In this document: one piece after another, positions 29,227 through 34,061 of the stretch
Layout of the letters: every line of letters starts with the position of its first letter
How positions within the stretch are numbered: the stretch's first letter is position 1
Origin: Lachnospiraceae bacterium
GTDB lineage: Bacteria > Bacillota > Clostridia > Lachnospirales > Lachnospiraceae
Length of the DNA: 42,640 bases
NCBI GenBank assembly: GCA_029062895.1
Contig: JAIDPF010000064.1
Coordinates: 1-42,640 of the forward strand
Direction of reading: 5' to 3'
Position numbers and translations under genes: made by a program
Notes under the pieces: model-generated
What the model was told of the DNA's origin: nothing
The model's input: the letters and a program-made list of their open reading frames with translations, nothing else
Database searches by the model: none

Positions 29227-29898
29227 TTATTTAATTGCAACAATTACAGCAAATTTTTGATAGGAGTAAACACACTTAACAACATTAAATTTACAATTTA
29301 TTAACATATCTACTTCTTGTTCAACAGAACATTCTTTATCTAATTTTCTGCGTTCTCTCCATAACTCTATATCTTTATCCGTTAATCCACTGTGCTCTAT
29401 CTGACTTTCCCAATAAGAATTAAACCAATGATTCATTTGCAACTGCTCTGCGCAAAATTGATCATAGTTTACAAACAGTCCGCCACTTGGCAAATGATCA
29501 TATATTCTTGAAAATAATTTTATCTTATCGCTATTTTCCAAATGATGAATGGAAAGTGCTGAGATCACCATATCAAAAATAGTATTTGGCAATTTATGAA
29601 TGTAATTCTCTATTTGATATGATATGCTTTCAATACCATCAAATCTTTTCCGGGCAACATTCAGCATTTCATCTGCAATATCGACAAGCACATATTTAGA
29701 ATTCGGACATTGCCGATACCAAAAATAAGTTAATAACCCTGTTCCTGCTCCTAAATCAATAACTCGTTTTGGCTCATCTATGTTGGAAACAATAAATTCT
29801 GTTGTTTGTTGATAGAAATCATCAAAACAGGGAATAAATTTTCTACGATTGTTATCATATTCTTTCGCAATCAAATTAAACTGTTCTTCTATATTCAT
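29227..29898 (-). CDS. Class I SAM-dependent methyltransferase
   Basis: A 223-residue methyltransferase. Motif I is VIDLGAGTGLL, followed by the acidic end of strand 2 (KYVLVDIADEML) and motif IV region DMVISALSIHHL. FVNYDQFCAEQLQ marks motif VI. The substrate is unknown, and the fold does not tell. It overlaps the preceding HAD gene by 4 nt, so the two are co-translated. The stop is only 4 nt from the rpsO promoter. Confidence 0.9.
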   Translation of the reverse strand: MNIEEQFNLIAKEYDNNRRKFIPCFDDFYQQTTEFIVSNIDEPKRVIDLGAGTGLLTYFWYRQCPNSKYVLVDIADEMLNVARKRFDGIESISYQIENYIHKLPNTIFDMVISALSIHHLENSDKIKLFSRIYDHLPSGGLFVNYDQFCAEQLQMNHWFNSYWESQIEHSGLTDKDIELWRERRKLDKECSVEQEVDMLINCKFNVVKCVYSYQKFAVIVAIK

Positions 29899-30677
29899 TT
29901 GAAAGTATTATCCTTGAGTATATTTTTTTCAATCCAATCTGCAACGCCATCCTCATCATTTGACAACGCGACACAATCTGCAACAACTTTTACATCCTCA
30001 ACAGCATTGGAAACAGCAACTCCTGTGCCACAGATTTGGAGCATTTCCATATCATTGATATCATCGCCAAAAGAAACAATATCACTTAGAGATATGTTCA
30101 ACGACTTTGCTAATTCATGGATTGCCTGTATCTTACCTGATTTTTCCGGCAGAAAAGCATACCAGTTCTCTCCCCGGTAACTTTGTAGACGACAGCGATT
30201 TTTATTTGCAATTTTTAAGGCTATATTACTGTCAGAAAGTTCTGCTACAATTTTATTAATTGGACAACATAACGGCTTTTTATAATCATTAAAAACTGCT
30301 TTATGCAATTTTTCAGATTCTGATATGTGGTTACTGTTCCATAAAACCTGACGCCCTGCTGCCACAGTTATTTCCGTATTTGGATTCTGTTTCATCAAAT
30401 CCTGTATGATTTGATTTGCATCAATCGTATCCATGCAGCAACTATAGATTTGTTTCCCTCGCTGATGGATAAGCGTTCCATCTGTTGTGATCTCATAATC
30501 CGGTTGAATTTCTTCTATGTAACGTTCCGCCCCTATCCAATATCGGGCAGTAGCCATCACAATAAGAATTCCATAGCTCTGACATTTTTTCAAAATCTGT
30601 TTTGTATATTCTGATATGCCGCCATCAGAACGAAGCAATGTATGATCAAGGTCTGTCAAAATCATTTTGGCATTCAT
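29895..30677 (-). CDS. HAD-family phosphatase (Cof type)
   Basis: A 260-residue haloacid-dehalogenase-fold phosphatase of the C2-capped Cof group. Nucleophile D9 and D11 occur in LTDLDHTLLRSDGG, with the cap between about 85 and 185. The metal-binding motif SFGDDINDMEML is near the end, after the conserved Lys region. Members hydrolyse sugar phosphates or nucleotide phosphates; the specific substrate is unknown. The start at ATG 30677 has AAGGGG about 10 nt upstream. It is followed by the methyltransferase gene with a 4-nt overlap. Confidence 0.9.
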   Translation of the reverse strand: MNAKMILTDLDHTLLRSDGGISEYTKQILKKCQSYGILIVMATARYWIGAERYIEEIQPDYEITTDGTLIHQRGKQIYSCCMDTIDANQIIQDLMKQNPNTEITVAAGRQVLWNSNHISESEKLHKAVFNDYKKPLCCPINKIVAELSDSNIALKIANKNRCRLQSYRGENWYAFLPEKSGKIQAIHELAKSLNISLSDIVSFGDDINDMEMLQICGTGVAVSNAVEDVKVVADCVALSNDEDGVADWIEKNILKDNTFK

Positions 30678-30839: not shown

Positions 30840-31457
30840 TTATCCTCGCTTTTCCACTGCCTTTACAGGGCATACTTCATAACAGTTGCCGCAATGCAGA
30901 CAATGTTCCTGCTTTATTTGATAATGATTCCCTGGTTCAATACACCGCTGTGGGCAGTTATTCAAACAAGTGCCACAACTAATACAGGATTCGCTAATCT
31001 GATATCCTTTGCAGGTGATATGGCTGCTACCAATGGTATAATTCTCTCGGAAAATAGGATTGACGCCAAGATTGAAATACTCAATTTCAGCATCCGTAAT
31101 CTGAAACACAATCCCCGCTAAATTTCTAGTATCACCTGGATATACATTTGACAGATACGGCTGCTCAGAAAAAATTGTGTCTATCCATTTCTTTTGATCT
31201 GATTCCGGAGCAGGAATAGCTTTTGCAGATAAGCGAATCATTTCCTTATATTTTGTGTAGCCGAGAACCTGAACACGCCCGTCGGTTAACAATTCCTTAC
31301 AGAACGCTTTTCCTTTAGCGGTAAAGAAATACATAGCTTGCGACTCATAATGAATCGCACTGATATTACGGATTTGTGGAGCGCCGTATTCATCCACCGT
31401 GGCGAAAGCAAGTACTCCTACATATTGCAGTTTTTGTAAACAGGTTTTTGCATCCAT
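30840..31457 (-). CDS. Pyridoxamine-phosphate-oxidase-like flavin domain fused to 2x[4Fe-4S] ferredoxin
   Basis: A 205-residue protein. Residues about 1-135 have the split-barrel FMN-binding fold of pyridoxamine 5'-phosphate oxidases (VGVLAFATVDEYGAPQIRNI, MYFFTAKGKAF, VQVLGYTKY). Residues 155-200 carry two 4Fe-4S motifs: C158-x2-C161-x2-C164-x3-C168 and C186-x2-C189-x2-C192-x3-C196. It could pass electrons between a flavin and a ferredoxin-type partner, perhaps supplying the radical SAM enzyme or nitroreductase. It starts at ATG 31457 with AAAGGAGG upstream and is the last gene of the presumed peptide operon. Confidence 0.85.
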   Translation of the reverse strand: MDAKTCLQKLQYVGVLAFATVDEYGAPQIRNISAIHYESQAMYFFTAKGKAFCKELLTDGRVQVLGYTKYKEMIRLSAKAIPAPESDQKKWIDTIFSEQPYLSNVYPGDTRNLAGIVFQITDAEIEYFNLGVNPIFRENYTIGSSHITCKGYQISESCISCGTCLNNCPQRCIEPGNHYQIKQEHCLHCGNCYEVCPVKAVEKRG

Positions 31458-31497
31458 TAATAATTTCCTCCTTTATTCAAACCTTCTGTCGGATAAT

Positions 31498-32079
31498 CTA
31501 TTCAACAATTTTGCTTCTGCTTTCTTTCCTCGGTTTTACCTGCGGGTATTCTCCATCACAATACCCCAGAAGAACAAAGCAGCGGGCAATATAATTTGCA
31601 GGGATCTCCCATTCCTTCAAAAATGCTGCACCCACCTCATTATCAAAGGTTTCCTCACCCCTTGCAATAATACAAGAGGAAATGCCCAGTTCCGCCGCCA
31701 TCAACACCATATTCTCCGCACAACAAAAAGCATCGGGAATACTATATAGAAAATTCTTCTGTGCAAAAACCACACAGACCGTTGGCGCTCCATAAAAACC
31801 GCTTTTCATAGACGGATCATCGATCACGCTGGGCTGCTCCTTTGAAACATAGCTGCCCGACAGACTGCTTCGGTCAAAACGAGCAAGGTTCAACCGTCCA
31901 ATCTTCTCGACTAACGCCTGATTACGGATGCCCAAAATGATACTGCGCTGACCCCCTCCGGCGTTTGGCGCATAAGTTCCGGCTTCTATGATTTTCTCCA
32001 AATCCGATTTTGAAATCTGCCTATCCTGATATTTACGGATAGAGCGGCGATGTTTCATCAGTTCCAAAAGTTCCATCAT
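31498..32079 (-). CDS. Nitroreductase-family flavoprotein
   Basis: A 193-residue NAD(P)H-dependent flavoprotein of the nitroreductase fold. RRSIRKYQDRQISK is the FMN-phosphate-binding start, and APNAGGGQRSIILG, CCAENMVLMAAELG and WEIPANYIARCFVLLGYCDG are family blocks. It overlaps the radical SAM gene by 4 nt and so is co-translated. In other peptide-natural-product loci such enzymes oxidise or reduce backbone bonds (for instance dehydrogenation); a similar role here is inference. Confidence 0.9.
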   Translation of the reverse strand: MMELLELMKHRRSIRKYQDRQISKSDLEKIIEAGTYAPNAGGGQRSIILGIRNQALVEKIGRLNLARFDRSSLSGSYVSKEQPSVIDDPSMKSGFYGAPTVCVVFAQKNFLYSIPDAFCCAENMVLMAAELGISSCIIARGEETFDNEVGAAFLKEWEIPANYIARCFVLLGYCDGEYPQVKPRKESRSKIVE

Positions 32080-33131
32080 TCAATCTCCTTCCAACATTGT
32101 GGATCAGCATCATAAAAATCCCCCTGCACTCCGCTGGCAACCGCCGGACAGCCACGGCACCATGCTTTTAATTCGCATTTGCTGCATTTCTTGAACTTGT
32201 CATATTCCCGGTAGGCTTCCATTTCACAGACCCAAACATCGGCGATCCTGTCCCGGGAAACATTGGCCACACGGCTATTCTGCACCCGGCGGCAGGCATA
32301 AATATCACCCGTTGGCAGGATTGTCAAGTGGCAGTTCCCGCAATTGCAGCCGCCGTAGATCATACCTTCCTGAGCAGTTTCGGGAATTTTAAACGTCCCC
32401 GTTTCATACTCATACAGCGTCCAAAGATGATCCTTTTTATTGAAGTAGGTTTCGCAGCCTGCCGCTTCATACTCTTTGAATTTTTTATCACAGGCTGCAA
32501 GCAATTCCCGGTAACGCATAGGCTCTATGCCTGTATCCTTTTCCTCACTGGTTGGGCAATAACGGGCAAAAGCGAACACATCCACTTTTGCTGCAACCAC
32601 CGTGTCTATGATAGCGGGAATTTCCTCAATGTTTTTGCCGGAAACAGTTGTCATCACCACGCTGCGGATTCCGGCTTTTTTGATACAGGCTACTTTTTCT
32701 AAGGTAATATCAAAGGAGCCGGGTTTTCTGAACCAGTCGTGGGTTTCCCGCATACCATCAAGGGAAAGCTGATATTTCTGACAACCGCATTCTTTCAGCT
32801 TCTGACACACCTCATCATTTAGGTGGAAGGGATTTCCAAGGATCGTAAAAGGAATAGCGTGTGTTTTCAGAAGTTCAAGTAGTTTCCAAAAATCCGGATG
32901 CAGGATCGGATCTCCGCCTGTAATATAAAAGTACGGCAGGCGATGATACATTTCGCAGAAATCCAAGCAGTTATAAAAGGTATCCTGTATTTGCTCCCAT
33001 GTCATAGCATCCGTTTTTTTACAGCCATCCTCTGAAAATATGTAGCAGTGCTTGCACCTCTGGTCGCACTCATCTGTGATATGCCATTGAAAAGCGAAGT
33101 ATTGCTTCGCTTCAGGAAAATATTGTTTCAT
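32076..33131 (-). CDS. Radical SAM/SPASM peptide-modifying enzyme (ACGX-type system)
   Basis: A 351-residue enzyme. The radical SAM cluster motif is C22-x3-C26-x2-C29 (DECDQRCKHCY), with the SAM motif YITGGDPIL. The C-terminal SPASM/twitch region has further cysteines (C262, C264, C267, C280, C316, C319, C325, C328, C346) for two auxiliary clusters. It should cleave SAM to a 5'-deoxyadenosyl radical and modify cysteine-linked positions of the peptide at 33315-33488. The start at ATG 33131 removes 27 in-frame codons that are only a translation of an intergenic repeat. It overlaps the nitroreductase gene. The name follows my recollection of the ACGX radical-SAM family. Confidence 0.85.
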   Translation of the reverse strand: MKQYFPEAKQYFAFQWHITDECDQRCKHCYIFSEDGCKKTDAMTWEQIQDTFYNCLDFCEMYHRLPYFYITGGDPILHPDFWKLLELLKTHAIPFTILGNPFHLNDEVCQKLKECGCQKYQLSLDGMRETHDWFRKPGSFDITLEKVACIKKAGIRSVVMTTVSGKNIEEIPAIIDTVVAAKVDVFAFARYCPTSEEKDTGIEPMRYRELLAACDKKFKEYEAAGCETYFNKKDHLWTLYEYETGTFKIPETAQEGMIYGGCNCGNCHLTILPTGDIYACRRVQNSRVANVSRDRIADVWVCEMEAYREYDKFKKCSKCELKAWCRGCPAVASGVQGDFYDADPQCWKEIE

Positions 33132-33215
33132 ACTAATAACCATGCCTTTCCATAGCCTGCGAATTGGGGCCGCAGGCACAAATTTGCGATTGAAAAATCT
33201 TTGATTTTTCAATCT
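33132..33215 (-). repeat. Dispersed two-hairpin intergenic repeat, copy C (precursor-radical SAM)
   Basis: About 84 nt, nearly identical to copy A at 12325. It pairs GCCTGCGAATT with CCGCAGGC, and has a second stem GATTGAAAAATC/GATTTTTCAATC. On the minus strand it directly abuts the radical SAM start codon and supplies GGAAAGG about 13 nt before it, the only ribosome site I see. Confidence 0.85.
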
Positions 33216-33277
33216 GTTGTCCTCACTTTATATGTAATCGGTTTTACCGAGTAACGATCGAATGTTCCCGACGAGAG

Positions 33278-33294
33278 CGTTCCCGCCGGGAACG
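33278..33294 (-). other. GC-rich hairpin after the precursor gene
   Basis: Perfect stem CGTTCCC-GCC-GGGAACG, about 20 nt after the precursor stop codon, with no U-run after it. Together with copy C it gives three stems in the 183-nt spacer. Such a spacer could stabilise the precursor message and reduce expression of the downstream enzymes. Confidence 0.6.
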
Positions 33295-33314
33295 GCTTTA
33301 AAGATGGCCGTTAA

Positions 33315-33488
33315 TTACTTGTCGCCAGCACCGCAGGCAGAGCCACAAGCAGCAGGCTTTTCTTCCGGCTTGTCACCGGCACCGCAGGCAGCAGGAGTTT
33401 CGCTCGGCTTATCAGAAGCCCCACAAGCAGCTCCGCAAGCGGAAGCAGCCTGTTCCTCAGTCCATCCAGCAAGATTAGAAAGTGCCAT
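33315..33488 (-). CDS. ACGX-repeat precursor peptide
   Basis: A 57-residue peptide starting at ATG 33488, 8 nt after AGGAGG. Residues 1-16 (MALSNLAGWTEEQAAS) look like a leader. The core has five ACG[A/S] motifs, with C18, C22, C35, C48 and C52 the only cysteines, spaced by Gly/Asp/Lys/Pro/Glu-rich linkers (GASDKPSETPA, GAGDKPEEKPA). Next to a radical SAM/SPASM gene this is the arrangement of a RiPP precursor. Likely modification is a thioether or other Cys-centred bond, though the real chemistry is unknown. The longer in-frame upstream reading (to 33641) crosses the promoter and is rejected. Confidence 0.88.
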   Translation of the reverse strand: MALSNLAGWTEEQAASACGAACGASDKPSETPAACGAGDKPEEKPAACGSACGAGDK

Positions 33489-33539
33489 AAAAAAGTCCTC
33501 CTTATATGTATTTAGGGAGCTTTTCACCCCGTGACAATC

Positions 33540-33567
33540 ATTATACCGGGATTTTCCTGTCCCACAA
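33540..33567 (-). promoter_or_regulatory. Promoter of the precursor peptide operon
   Basis: A perfect -10 TATAAT (33540-33545, minus strand) about 50 nt before the precursor start. The -35 is weak (TTGTGG, 33562-33567, 16-nt spacer). A strong -10 with a weak -35 and repeats just upstream (33569-33595) fits a promoter that needs an activator. Confidence 0.6.
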
Positions 33568-33568
33568 G

Positions 33569-33595
33569 TACGCACAATTTTATGGGGATACGCAC
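33569..33595. promoter_or_regulatory. Direct-repeat candidate operator in the divergent region
   Basis: Two exact TACGCAC units (33569-33575 and 33589-33595) with a 20-nt period, two helical turns, immediately upstream of the precursor -35. It is a natural candidate binding site for the HxlR protein encoded next door. Confidence 0.5.
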
Positions 33596-33659
33596 TTTTT
33601 TGTAACCTTTGTGGATTTACGTTGTTTCCCGGCACCAACAATTTTGGCGCCTCCTTCTA

Positions 33660-33688
33660 TTGCATTTAATAAAAGGTTATACTATAAT
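33660..33688 (+). promoter_or_regulatory. Promoter of the HxlR regulator gene
   Basis: -35 TTGCAT (33660-33665), 17-nt spacer, perfect -10 TATAAT (33683-33688), about 35 nt before the ribosome site GGAGGTG. Confidence 0.75.
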
Positions 33689-33728
33689 TGAGATGTAACA
33701 TTCTTTTTTGAAGTAATGGAGGTGTGAC

Positions 33729-34061
33729 ATGAAAACAAAAGCCGAATTGCTGCCTGACTGTCCGGTAGCTACAACTGTTCAGCTTATCGGAAACAAATGG
33801 AAGTTATTGATTATCCGCAACCTTCGAATCCGACCGTGGCGTTTTAATGAATTGCAGAAAAATTTGGACGGTATCAGTCAAAAGGTGCTGACTGACAGCC
33901 TGCGTTCTATGGAAGCGGATGGACTGATTACCCGCACTGTATATGCAGAAGTGCCGCCAAGAGTTGAATATGCCTTATCGGAATTGGGGGAAACCATGCG
34001 CCCGATTCTTGATGCCATGGAAGCGTGGGGAAATTCCTATAAATCAATAAAAAGTGATTAA
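33729..34061 (+). CDS. HxlR-family winged-helix regulator
   Basis: A 110-residue DNA-binding protein. The HxlR pattern is complete: CPVATTVQLIGNKWKLLIIR, RFNELQKNL, ISQKVLTDSLRSMEADGLI, and the wing VPPRVEYALSELGE. It has one cysteine near the N-terminus (C12, in DCPVAT), the position that senses redox or electrophiles in several HxlR/MarR-like relatives. It diverges from the precursor peptide and probably controls the peptide operon. The start is ATG 33729 behind GGAGGTG. Confidence 0.93.
   Translation: MKTKAELLPDCPVATTVQLIGNKWKLLIIRNLRIRPWRFNELQKNLDGISQKVLTDSLRSMEADGLITRTVYAEVPPRVEYALSELGETMRPILDAMEAWGNSYKSIKSD

Follow-up and report, generated by a model that had tools for sequence, protein, structure and literature searches.

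A radical SAM/ACGX-peptide locus of Lachnospiraceae as a candidate redox-induced peptide-carrier operon linked to SirTM and Zn-macrodomain genes

Among the described systems that resemble the locus studied here are the extended operons of class M sirtuins (SirTM) and Zn-macrodomain proteins. According to the parts of two reports that deal with them (Rack et al. 2015, PMC4518038; 2024, PMC11490716), the carrier protein GcvH-L is lipoylated by LplA2 and ADP-ribosylated by SirTM, and the Zn-macrodomain protein reverses the latter step. This switch was described in vitro for staphylococci and streptococci; two flavin oxidoreductases are associated with it and the lipoyl group was proposed to act as an oxidant scavenger. 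GcvH-L is called the sole known SirTM target in the later report, the targets of other SirTM pairs being elusive (PMC11490716). Here we analysed a locus of the ACGX type, which comprises a repeat-containing precursor peptide (AcgA) and a radical S-adenosylmethionine (SAM)/SPASM enzyme (AcgM), in a Lachnospiraceae bacterium (assembly GCA_029062895.1, contig JAIDPF010000064.1, positions 1 to 42,640; this whole stretch of 42,640 nucleotides is called the window).

The ACGX pair is catalogued in NCBIfam under names without function (TIGR04341 for the peptide, TIGR04340 for the enzyme). Both window proteins are far above the cut-offs (69.7 vs. 28 bits and 607.5 vs. 400 bits, respectively), and their genes are adjacent and in the same order as acgA-acgM of Roseburia sp. 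831b. A previous inspection of the DNA, referred to as the sequence-only reading, had regarded the pairing as a catalogued system with no described product. The family matches agree with this, and no paper on the ACGX system, on AcgM or on a link of radical SAM enzymes to SirTM or macrodomains was found in a search that was thin on subscription journals. The core of the window locus is no different from that of other members and the locus is an ordinary member of the ACGX pair; added here are its partners, a putative operator and the SirTM link. The novelty lies in an acg operon that combines SirTM and Zn-macrodomain genes with a candidate peptide carrier.

Relatives of the window locus resemble the extended SirTM/Zn-Macro operon, as far as the available parts of the reports describe it, in that a candidate carrier, a carrier modifier, SirTM, a Zn-macrodomain and two oxidoreductases are combined in a redox-stress setting. 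They differ in that a Cys-repeat peptide takes the place of GcvH-L and a radical SAM enzyme that of lipoate ligase, and the oxidoreductases are a nitroreductase or an MDR-type zinc dehydrogenase plus a PNPOx-like protein with a ferredoxin tail (PNPOx-ferredoxin) instead of OYE and LLM. Unlike in the extended operon, the SirTM gene of the window's genome sits elsewhere. The regulator also has described counterparts. DUF24 regulators of Bacillus subtilis are reported in the relevant sections of PMC6943732 to sense HOCl, quinones and diamide via an N-terminal Cys, and the azoreductase AzoR1 and the nitroreductase YodC are induced within their regulons. HypR and YodB share with the acg locus an N-terminal sensor Cys and a nitroreductase under their control, the latter being suggested for acg by gene position. 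Unlike these regulons the acg regulon would include the radical SAM enzyme with its peptide and, in relatives, SirTM and Zn-macrodomain genes. Bufferins and captophorins (PMC12668002, PMC12452194), in the parts of these reports that describe their making, are small peptides in which several Cys residues are modified under stress, a feature that AcgA may share. They are made by MNIO enzymes and linked to copper, whereas the AcgA maturase is of the radical SAM/SPASM type; bufferin precursors carry Sec signal peptides, whereas none is apparent by eye in AcgA.

Since the acg operon repeats the GcvH-L/SirTM plan part by part, we propose AcgA as an intracellular, redox-induced modified-cysteine carrier that is not exported and is gated by ADP-ribosylation where SirTM is present. 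We consider this proposal possible, though short of probable. The acg locus would be an HxlR-controlled thiol/electrophile-stress operon in which AcgM acts on the Ala-Cys-Gly-(Ala/Ser/Thr) units of AcgA and turns their Cys into an organosulfur group. Modified AcgA would remain intracellular and serve as a modified-cysteine carrier or redox tail, while the nitroreductase or MDR dehydrogenase together with the PNPOx-ferredoxin would detoxify electrophiles or exchange electrons with it. Where SirTM and the Zn-macrodomain are part of the operon or regulon, reversible ADP-ribosylation by this pair would turn the carrier off and on, by analogy to lipoyl-GcvH-L.

For comparison the best 80 of 534 confirmed loci were used, so that counts lean to near relatives, together with an independently drawn set of 397 genomes from the window's family, called the family sample. 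Within the 80 loci, 68 extend at least 2.2 kb and 56 at least 5 kb beyond acgM, and these were used for downstream counts. The typical order in relatives is a divergent HxlR gene, the ACGX peptide gene, the radical SAM gene, an oxidoreductase gene and the PNPOx-ferredoxin gene, often followed by genes for a Zn-macrodomain protein and SirTM. A SirTM gene is located within 5 kb downstream in 38 of the 56 long loci and a Zn-macrodomain gene in 22. The class M motif TQG (QG replacing HG) is present in all 44 linked SirTMs of relatives and the zinc motif in all 28 linked macrodomains, one of which was scanned and exceeded the cut-off for protein-ADP-ribose hydrolases (365.8 vs. 272 bits). Indeed, the annotation of a Roseburia sp. 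831b plasmid lists a divergent helix-turn-helix regulator, acgA, acgM, a nitroreductase, a 4Fe-4S protein, a protein-ADP-ribose hydrolase and Sir2 in this order. In the family sample acgM scored above its cut-off in 51 of 397 genomes (about one in eight), and of 53 acgM loci at least 23 are followed within 8 kb by a SirTM gene on the same strand. A SirTM match (E ≤ 1e-40) was obtained for 46 of the 51 ACGX genomes and for 138 of the 346 others (Fisher p 4e-12); at E ≤ 1e-95 the counts were 37/51 and 96/346 (p 1e-9). Both tests ignore kinship and the QG motif is unchecked in these genome-level matches. No SirTM match is present on the window's contig. In this genome the operon is located on contig 77, the SirTM gene on contig 30 (unlinked, reading TQG, 72% identical to that of locus L017) and a zinc macrodomain gene on contig 17, so that no operon is shared; contig 78 carries a weak sirtuin-like match (26%).

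The unlinked SirTM gene of the window's genome and the acg operon can nevertheless be read as one regulon by way of a putative operator. The HxlR/DUF24 gene (33729..34061, plus strand; PF01638, 106.8 bits) is divergent from acgA, as had been claimed before, and a divergent HxlR gene within 2.5 kb was counted in 59 of 67 related loci with 1.3 kb of upstream sequence. The best NCBIfam matches of the regulator, both under the cut-off, are RrpB (118.2 vs. 175 bits) and RrpA (84.9 vs. 185 bits), which are labelled as redox transcription factors. The single invariant Cys column of the family, Cys11, is filled in 94 of 96 aligned copies, some of them repeat copies of the same locus; the other two are gapped there. 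The HxlR-acgA intergenic region of the window contains a repeated A-rich/GTGCGTA site on the minus strand. The upstream copy is GTTACAAAAAAGTGCGTA (33589..33606) and the second copy GTGCGTACTTG (33565..33575), which overlaps the −35 element of the predicted operon promoter (TTGTGG, 16 nucleotides, TATAAT; 33540..33567, minus strand, read by eye). We infer that HxlR binds to these sites. The form GTGCGTACT is shared by most nonredundant HxlR-acgA intergenic regions of relatives (61 of 70). The core GTGCGTACTT was counted 68 times in the 80 loci; 63 of these copies have the orientation of acgM and lie no more than 900 bases upstream of it.

A search of the 3.07-Mb genome of the window for the 18-base sequence GTTACAAAAAAGTGCGTA, allowing two mismatches, gave two sites, both of them perfect; one precedes acgA and the other the SirTM gene. 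The reversed control gave one site. The shorter core GTGCGTACTT has seven occurrences (reversed control: two), namely one each upstream of acgA and of SirTM, one between a paralogous HxlR gene and a flavin mononucleotide (FMN) reductase gene, three inside open reading frames (ORFs) and one on contig 47 between two ORFs reading the other way. Only three genes of this genome match the window HxlR at E ≤ 1e-8 (100, 40 and 41% identity). Of 20 SirTM loci unlinked to ACGX, 19 from other genomes and that of the window's genome, seven carry GTGCGTACTT before the Macro/SirTM operon (L125, L167, L168, L169, L171, L175 and L176; six of 19 when the window's genome is excluded) and 13 do not. The pair of a paralogous HxlR gene and a divergent gene for an NADPH-dependent FMN reductase (PF03358) with the GTGCGTACTT core is locus L180 (genome G000, contig 24), and the box thus reaches wider than the acg operon. 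ACGX-free SirTM operons with a divergent HxlR gene and a gene for an NAD(P)H-binding protein (PF13460 in the one scanned) were seen at L160:6560-7267, L168:6664-7308 and L173:6596-7231, an arrangement that represents another layout of the same stress module.

The peptide gene acgA (33315..33488, minus strand) encodes 57 residues with five ACG[A/S] units, as noted before, the Cys residues being at positions 18, 22, 35, 48 and 52. Shuffling its residues 100,000 times never yielded as many as five motifs. For the family a total of 119 peptide rows were examined, some loci having been fetched twice; no candidate was present in three (L022, L039, L076), one was a spurious frame (L060) and several were cut by contig ends. 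Statistics refer to 92 peptides with the leader pattern, leaderless rows being left out. Repeat copies were recognised by name and 11 of them removed; a few may still be included. These peptides start with a short segment, most often MALSNL-x-GW, and contain 2 to 15 Cys residues. Of 596 Cys residues 595 have Gly as the next residue and 567 have Ala as the preceding one, and 592 have Ala, Ser or Thr two residues after them. The C-terminal residues are DK in 79 of the 92 peptides despite the varying repeat number, and Asp is present in 90. Phage carriage was looked for and not found, no viral contig matching the six ACGX peptide patterns used; a search of plasmids gave four matching records, two of them versions of one.

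In one genome (G071, L104:2920-3669, minus strand, contig 28) the ACGX repeats form the C-terminal end of a 249-residue flavin reductase ORF (PF01613, 47.3 vs. 27 bits), with a leader-like GLSQLAGW stretch kept between the flavin reductase and the repeats. No further ACGX match is present in this genome. The fusion fits a peptide that works uncleaved and beside a flavin. An archaeal locus was found on plasmid pNP174 of Methanosphaera sp. ISO3-F5 (L198, 76920-91935). Its 85-residue peptide has six ACG units and one PCG unit, each followed by x-Glu, and with 12.9 vs. 28 bits it is under the family cut-off and is ACGX-like only. Behind the peptide gene come a radical SAM gene, which shows 59% identity and is split in two in the annotation, and a zinc-binding (MDR) dehydrogenase gene. 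Encoded divergently are an HxlR protein with 33% identity, in which the N-terminal Cys is conserved, and a PNPOx-ferredoxin with 42%. No SirTM is annotated within 7 kb of this locus, and BREX genes are located near it. Cys-Gly with a nearby acidic residue is, by peptide comparison, what persists between archaeal and bacterial peptides. A decayed locus was also seen (L162, genome G350, contig 94), in which a truncated ACGX peptide runs into a PNPOx-ferredoxin gene remnant; it has no radical SAM match and has kept SirTM and GTGCGTACTT.

The acgM gene (32076..33131, minus strand, ATG at 33131) encodes 351 residues with Pfam Radical_SAM and SPASM domains; a TTG-started extension to 33212 is possible. 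The sequence-only reading had described a C22-x3-C26-x2-C29 motif plus nine further cysteines. The motif is present, while the number nine is an undercount for the enzyme as a whole, which has 23 Cys residues; it is correct if the SPASM region alone was meant (Cys 262, 264, 267, 280, 316, 319, 325, 328 and 346). The AlphaFold model is of middling confidence (mean pLDDT 69.9, pTM 0.75), and four solved chains match AcgM by sequence, the best being 5wgg (E 1.3e-10). AcgA is probably altered by this radical enzyme. As to the kind of alteration, the second-best NCBIfam match of AcgM is SbtM (TIGR04082), which covers most of the enzyme and yet stays far under the cut-off (164.5 vs. 350 bits). Thio(seleno)oxazole formation by the radical SAM enzyme SbtM was reportedly described by Lewis et al. 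in 2021. Because SbtM is the next-best family, our guess for the Cys chemistry is a thiooxazole-type heterocycle in AcgA.

The nitroreductase gene (31498..32079, minus strand; PF00881) starts inside the acgM stop codon (ATGA overlap), in agreement with the proposed joint translation, and the last gene (30840..31457, minus strand) encodes a PNPOx-like FMN split barrel protein with a 2x[4Fe-4S] ferredoxin tail, the expected Pfam combination of PNPOx_N and 2x[4Fe-4S]. All five genes thus lie where the sequence-only reading had placed them. The neighbourhood survey it had called for revealed conservation of the redox partners as well as of HxlR: besides the divergent HxlR gene, a PNPOx-ferredoxin gene is present within 2.2 kb after acgM in 47 of the 68 loci, its eight cluster Cys residues being invariant in 27 aligned copies, and a nitroreductase gene adjoins acgM in 44. 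In 19 of the 68 an unrelated MDR/zinc dehydrogenase gene occupies the nitroreductase position; no locus has both and five have neither. For one MDR copy that was scanned, the top NCBIfam family was a PIG3-type quinone oxidoreductase, with a score below the cut-off (144.7 vs. 296.8 bits). On the AcgM tree the nitroreductase/MDR label changes 13 times by parsimony, and at least five switches are forced by strongly supported branches when 'neither' is treated as a third state. This weakens the earlier suggestion that the nitroreductase performs a second modification. A dedicated tailoring role for it is unlikely, because it is exchanged for an unrelated dehydrogenase and the two never occur together; two unrelated reductases alternating at one place would fit detoxification or electron supply better than tailoring. 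A gene for an additional nitroreductase with a two-cluster ferredoxin fused to it replaces or adjoins the PNPOx-ferredoxin gene in five loci (L006, L048, L054, L062, L063).

Among other features of the locus, the genes acgA and acgM are separated by 183 nucleotides on the same strand. This spacer (33132..33314, minus strand) is predicted to form GC-rich hairpins, with a folding energy of −65.6 kcal/mol (z −5.45) that none of 200 shuffles equalled, and the structure may hold the level of acgM below that of acgA. Two further genes of the window, for a methyltransferase (29227-29898) and a HAD phosphatase (29895-30677), were rejected as operon members; they follow acgM in only 2 and 5 of the 56 long loci, respectively, and L002 carries both in the window's own order. 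The methyltransferase (minus strand) is of class I, and a 66% identical copy lies within the ACGX-SirTM operon of L043. A DUF5131 gene was observed downstream of acgM in 7 of the 56 long loci (L009, L011, L043, L057, L063, L076, L078) and in L016. The downstream scan covered 61 non-core same-strand ORFs (at least 90 residues, up to 3.5 kb after acgM, from 62 of the 80 loci) with 67 families, the 25 most frequent of which were viewed. No exporter or leader-peptidase family matches two or more of these ORFs and no family matches more than four of them; the amino-acid transport family AzlC matches two. DUF1848 occurs in three of the 61 ORFs and also after Sir2 in Roseburia sp. 831b. Neither GcvH-L nor LplA2 was seen among the eight window genes (Pfam) or the recurring neighbour clusters read, no search having been aimed at either.

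Several observations weigh against a carrier switched by SirTM. A SirTM gene is missing within 5 kb in 18 of the 56 long loci and beside the window operon, 5 of the 51 ACGX genomes lack a SirTM match at E ≤ 1e-40, and SirTM-like genes are present in 138 ACGX-free genomes; that SirTM is unique to ACGX loci is rejected by this last count. The distances of SirTM correlate weakly with those of AcgM (r 0.15, 8 of 300 permutations as high), whereas values of 0.53 for the nitroreductase, 0.52 for MDR, 0.37 for the macrodomain, 0.34 for HxlR and 0.26 for the PNPOx-ferredoxin were not reached in any of 300 permutations. In the SirTM tree, from which the copy of the decayed locus L162 was left out, linked and unlinked copies are intermixed: the label changes 12 times, against a mean of 17.2 in shuffles, and 2 of 500 shuffles gave so low a value. 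The linked copies show some clustering and no single clade. Strict co-evolution of SirTM and AcgM was hence not found, and together with 12 changes of SirTM presence on the AcgM tree these data indicate that SirTM joins and leaves the acg operon often. Furthermore, the HxlR box is not exclusive, its core being present at the paralogous HxlR/FMN-reductase pair, the fusion to flavin reductase rests on one of 46 genomes with ACGX matches in the family sample, and AcgM scores far below the SbtM cut-off. Weak co-inheritance, the loci without SirTM nearby and the ACGX-free SirTM operons behind the same GTGCGTACTT core would also be expected of a plain detoxification unit for electrophile and disulfide stress. 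In such a unit HxlR senses the stress, the reductases and the PNPOx-ferredoxin reduce quinones and modified AcgA is an intracellular thiol/electrophile buffer, while SirTM and macrodomain share the regulon and act on other proteins. The interchangeable nitroreductase and MDR dehydrogenase and the redox-type HxlR with its one invariant Cys point the same way, and we regard this explanation as a serious, if somewhat doubtful, contender. It does not account for the frequent downstream SirTM genes and their over-representation at the genome level, nor for a window genome that keeps unlinked ACGX and SirTM genes behind one 18-base site.

Cys-Gly repeats and the distant similarity of AcgM to SbtM would also suit a metal-binding peptide, whose AcgM-made thiooxazoles sequester copper or another soft metal in the cytosol; Cys-derived thiooxazole peptides of the bufferin/captophorin kind are described as copper-binding in the respective parts of PMC12668002 and PMC12452194. 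We consider this improbable, as the regulator is of the thiol-redox HxlR type and no metal sensor, the maturase is a radical SAM enzyme and no MNIO, and no metal transporter or regulator was among the recurring neighbour clusters read or the 25 most frequent downstream families. A classical exported ribosomally synthesised and post-translationally modified peptide, which would act as an antimicrobial or signal and be tailored by the flavoenzymes, is suggested by the short precursor with a conserved N-terminal segment, repeats and an adjoining maturase. Nevertheless such a product is very unlikely: no exporter or peptidase recurs among the 61 downstream ORFs scanned, the fusion protein retains its leader-like stretch, the supposed tailoring enzyme is exchanged for an unrelated one, and the C-terminal DK is kept while the repeat number varies. 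With regard to the intracellular carrier, the SirTM and macrodomain neighbours and the shared control site are the reason why AcgA, instead of being secreted as an antibiotic, may be a target still missing for a switch that works by reversible ADP-ribosylation. A more far-reaching version makes AcgA the first non-lipoyl SirTM substrate: a ribosomal peptide, or a tail on a flavin enzyme, whose built-in organosulfur cofactor is made by radical SAM chemistry and turned off and on through ADP-ribosylation, with HxlR as the redox sensor. The system would occur in gut Clostridia and, with no adjoining SirTM, on a methanogen plasmid; this version we hold to be rather unlikely.

Linkage and the shared putative operator name AcgA as a concrete candidate for a SirTM target. 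If the carrier proposal is true, a function would be assigned to a catalogued peptide-radical SAM pair that is found in the 51 acgM-positive genomes of the family sample, and the acg operon would provide an example of a radical-SAM-modified peptide that serves as an intracellular redox part, with no secreted product.

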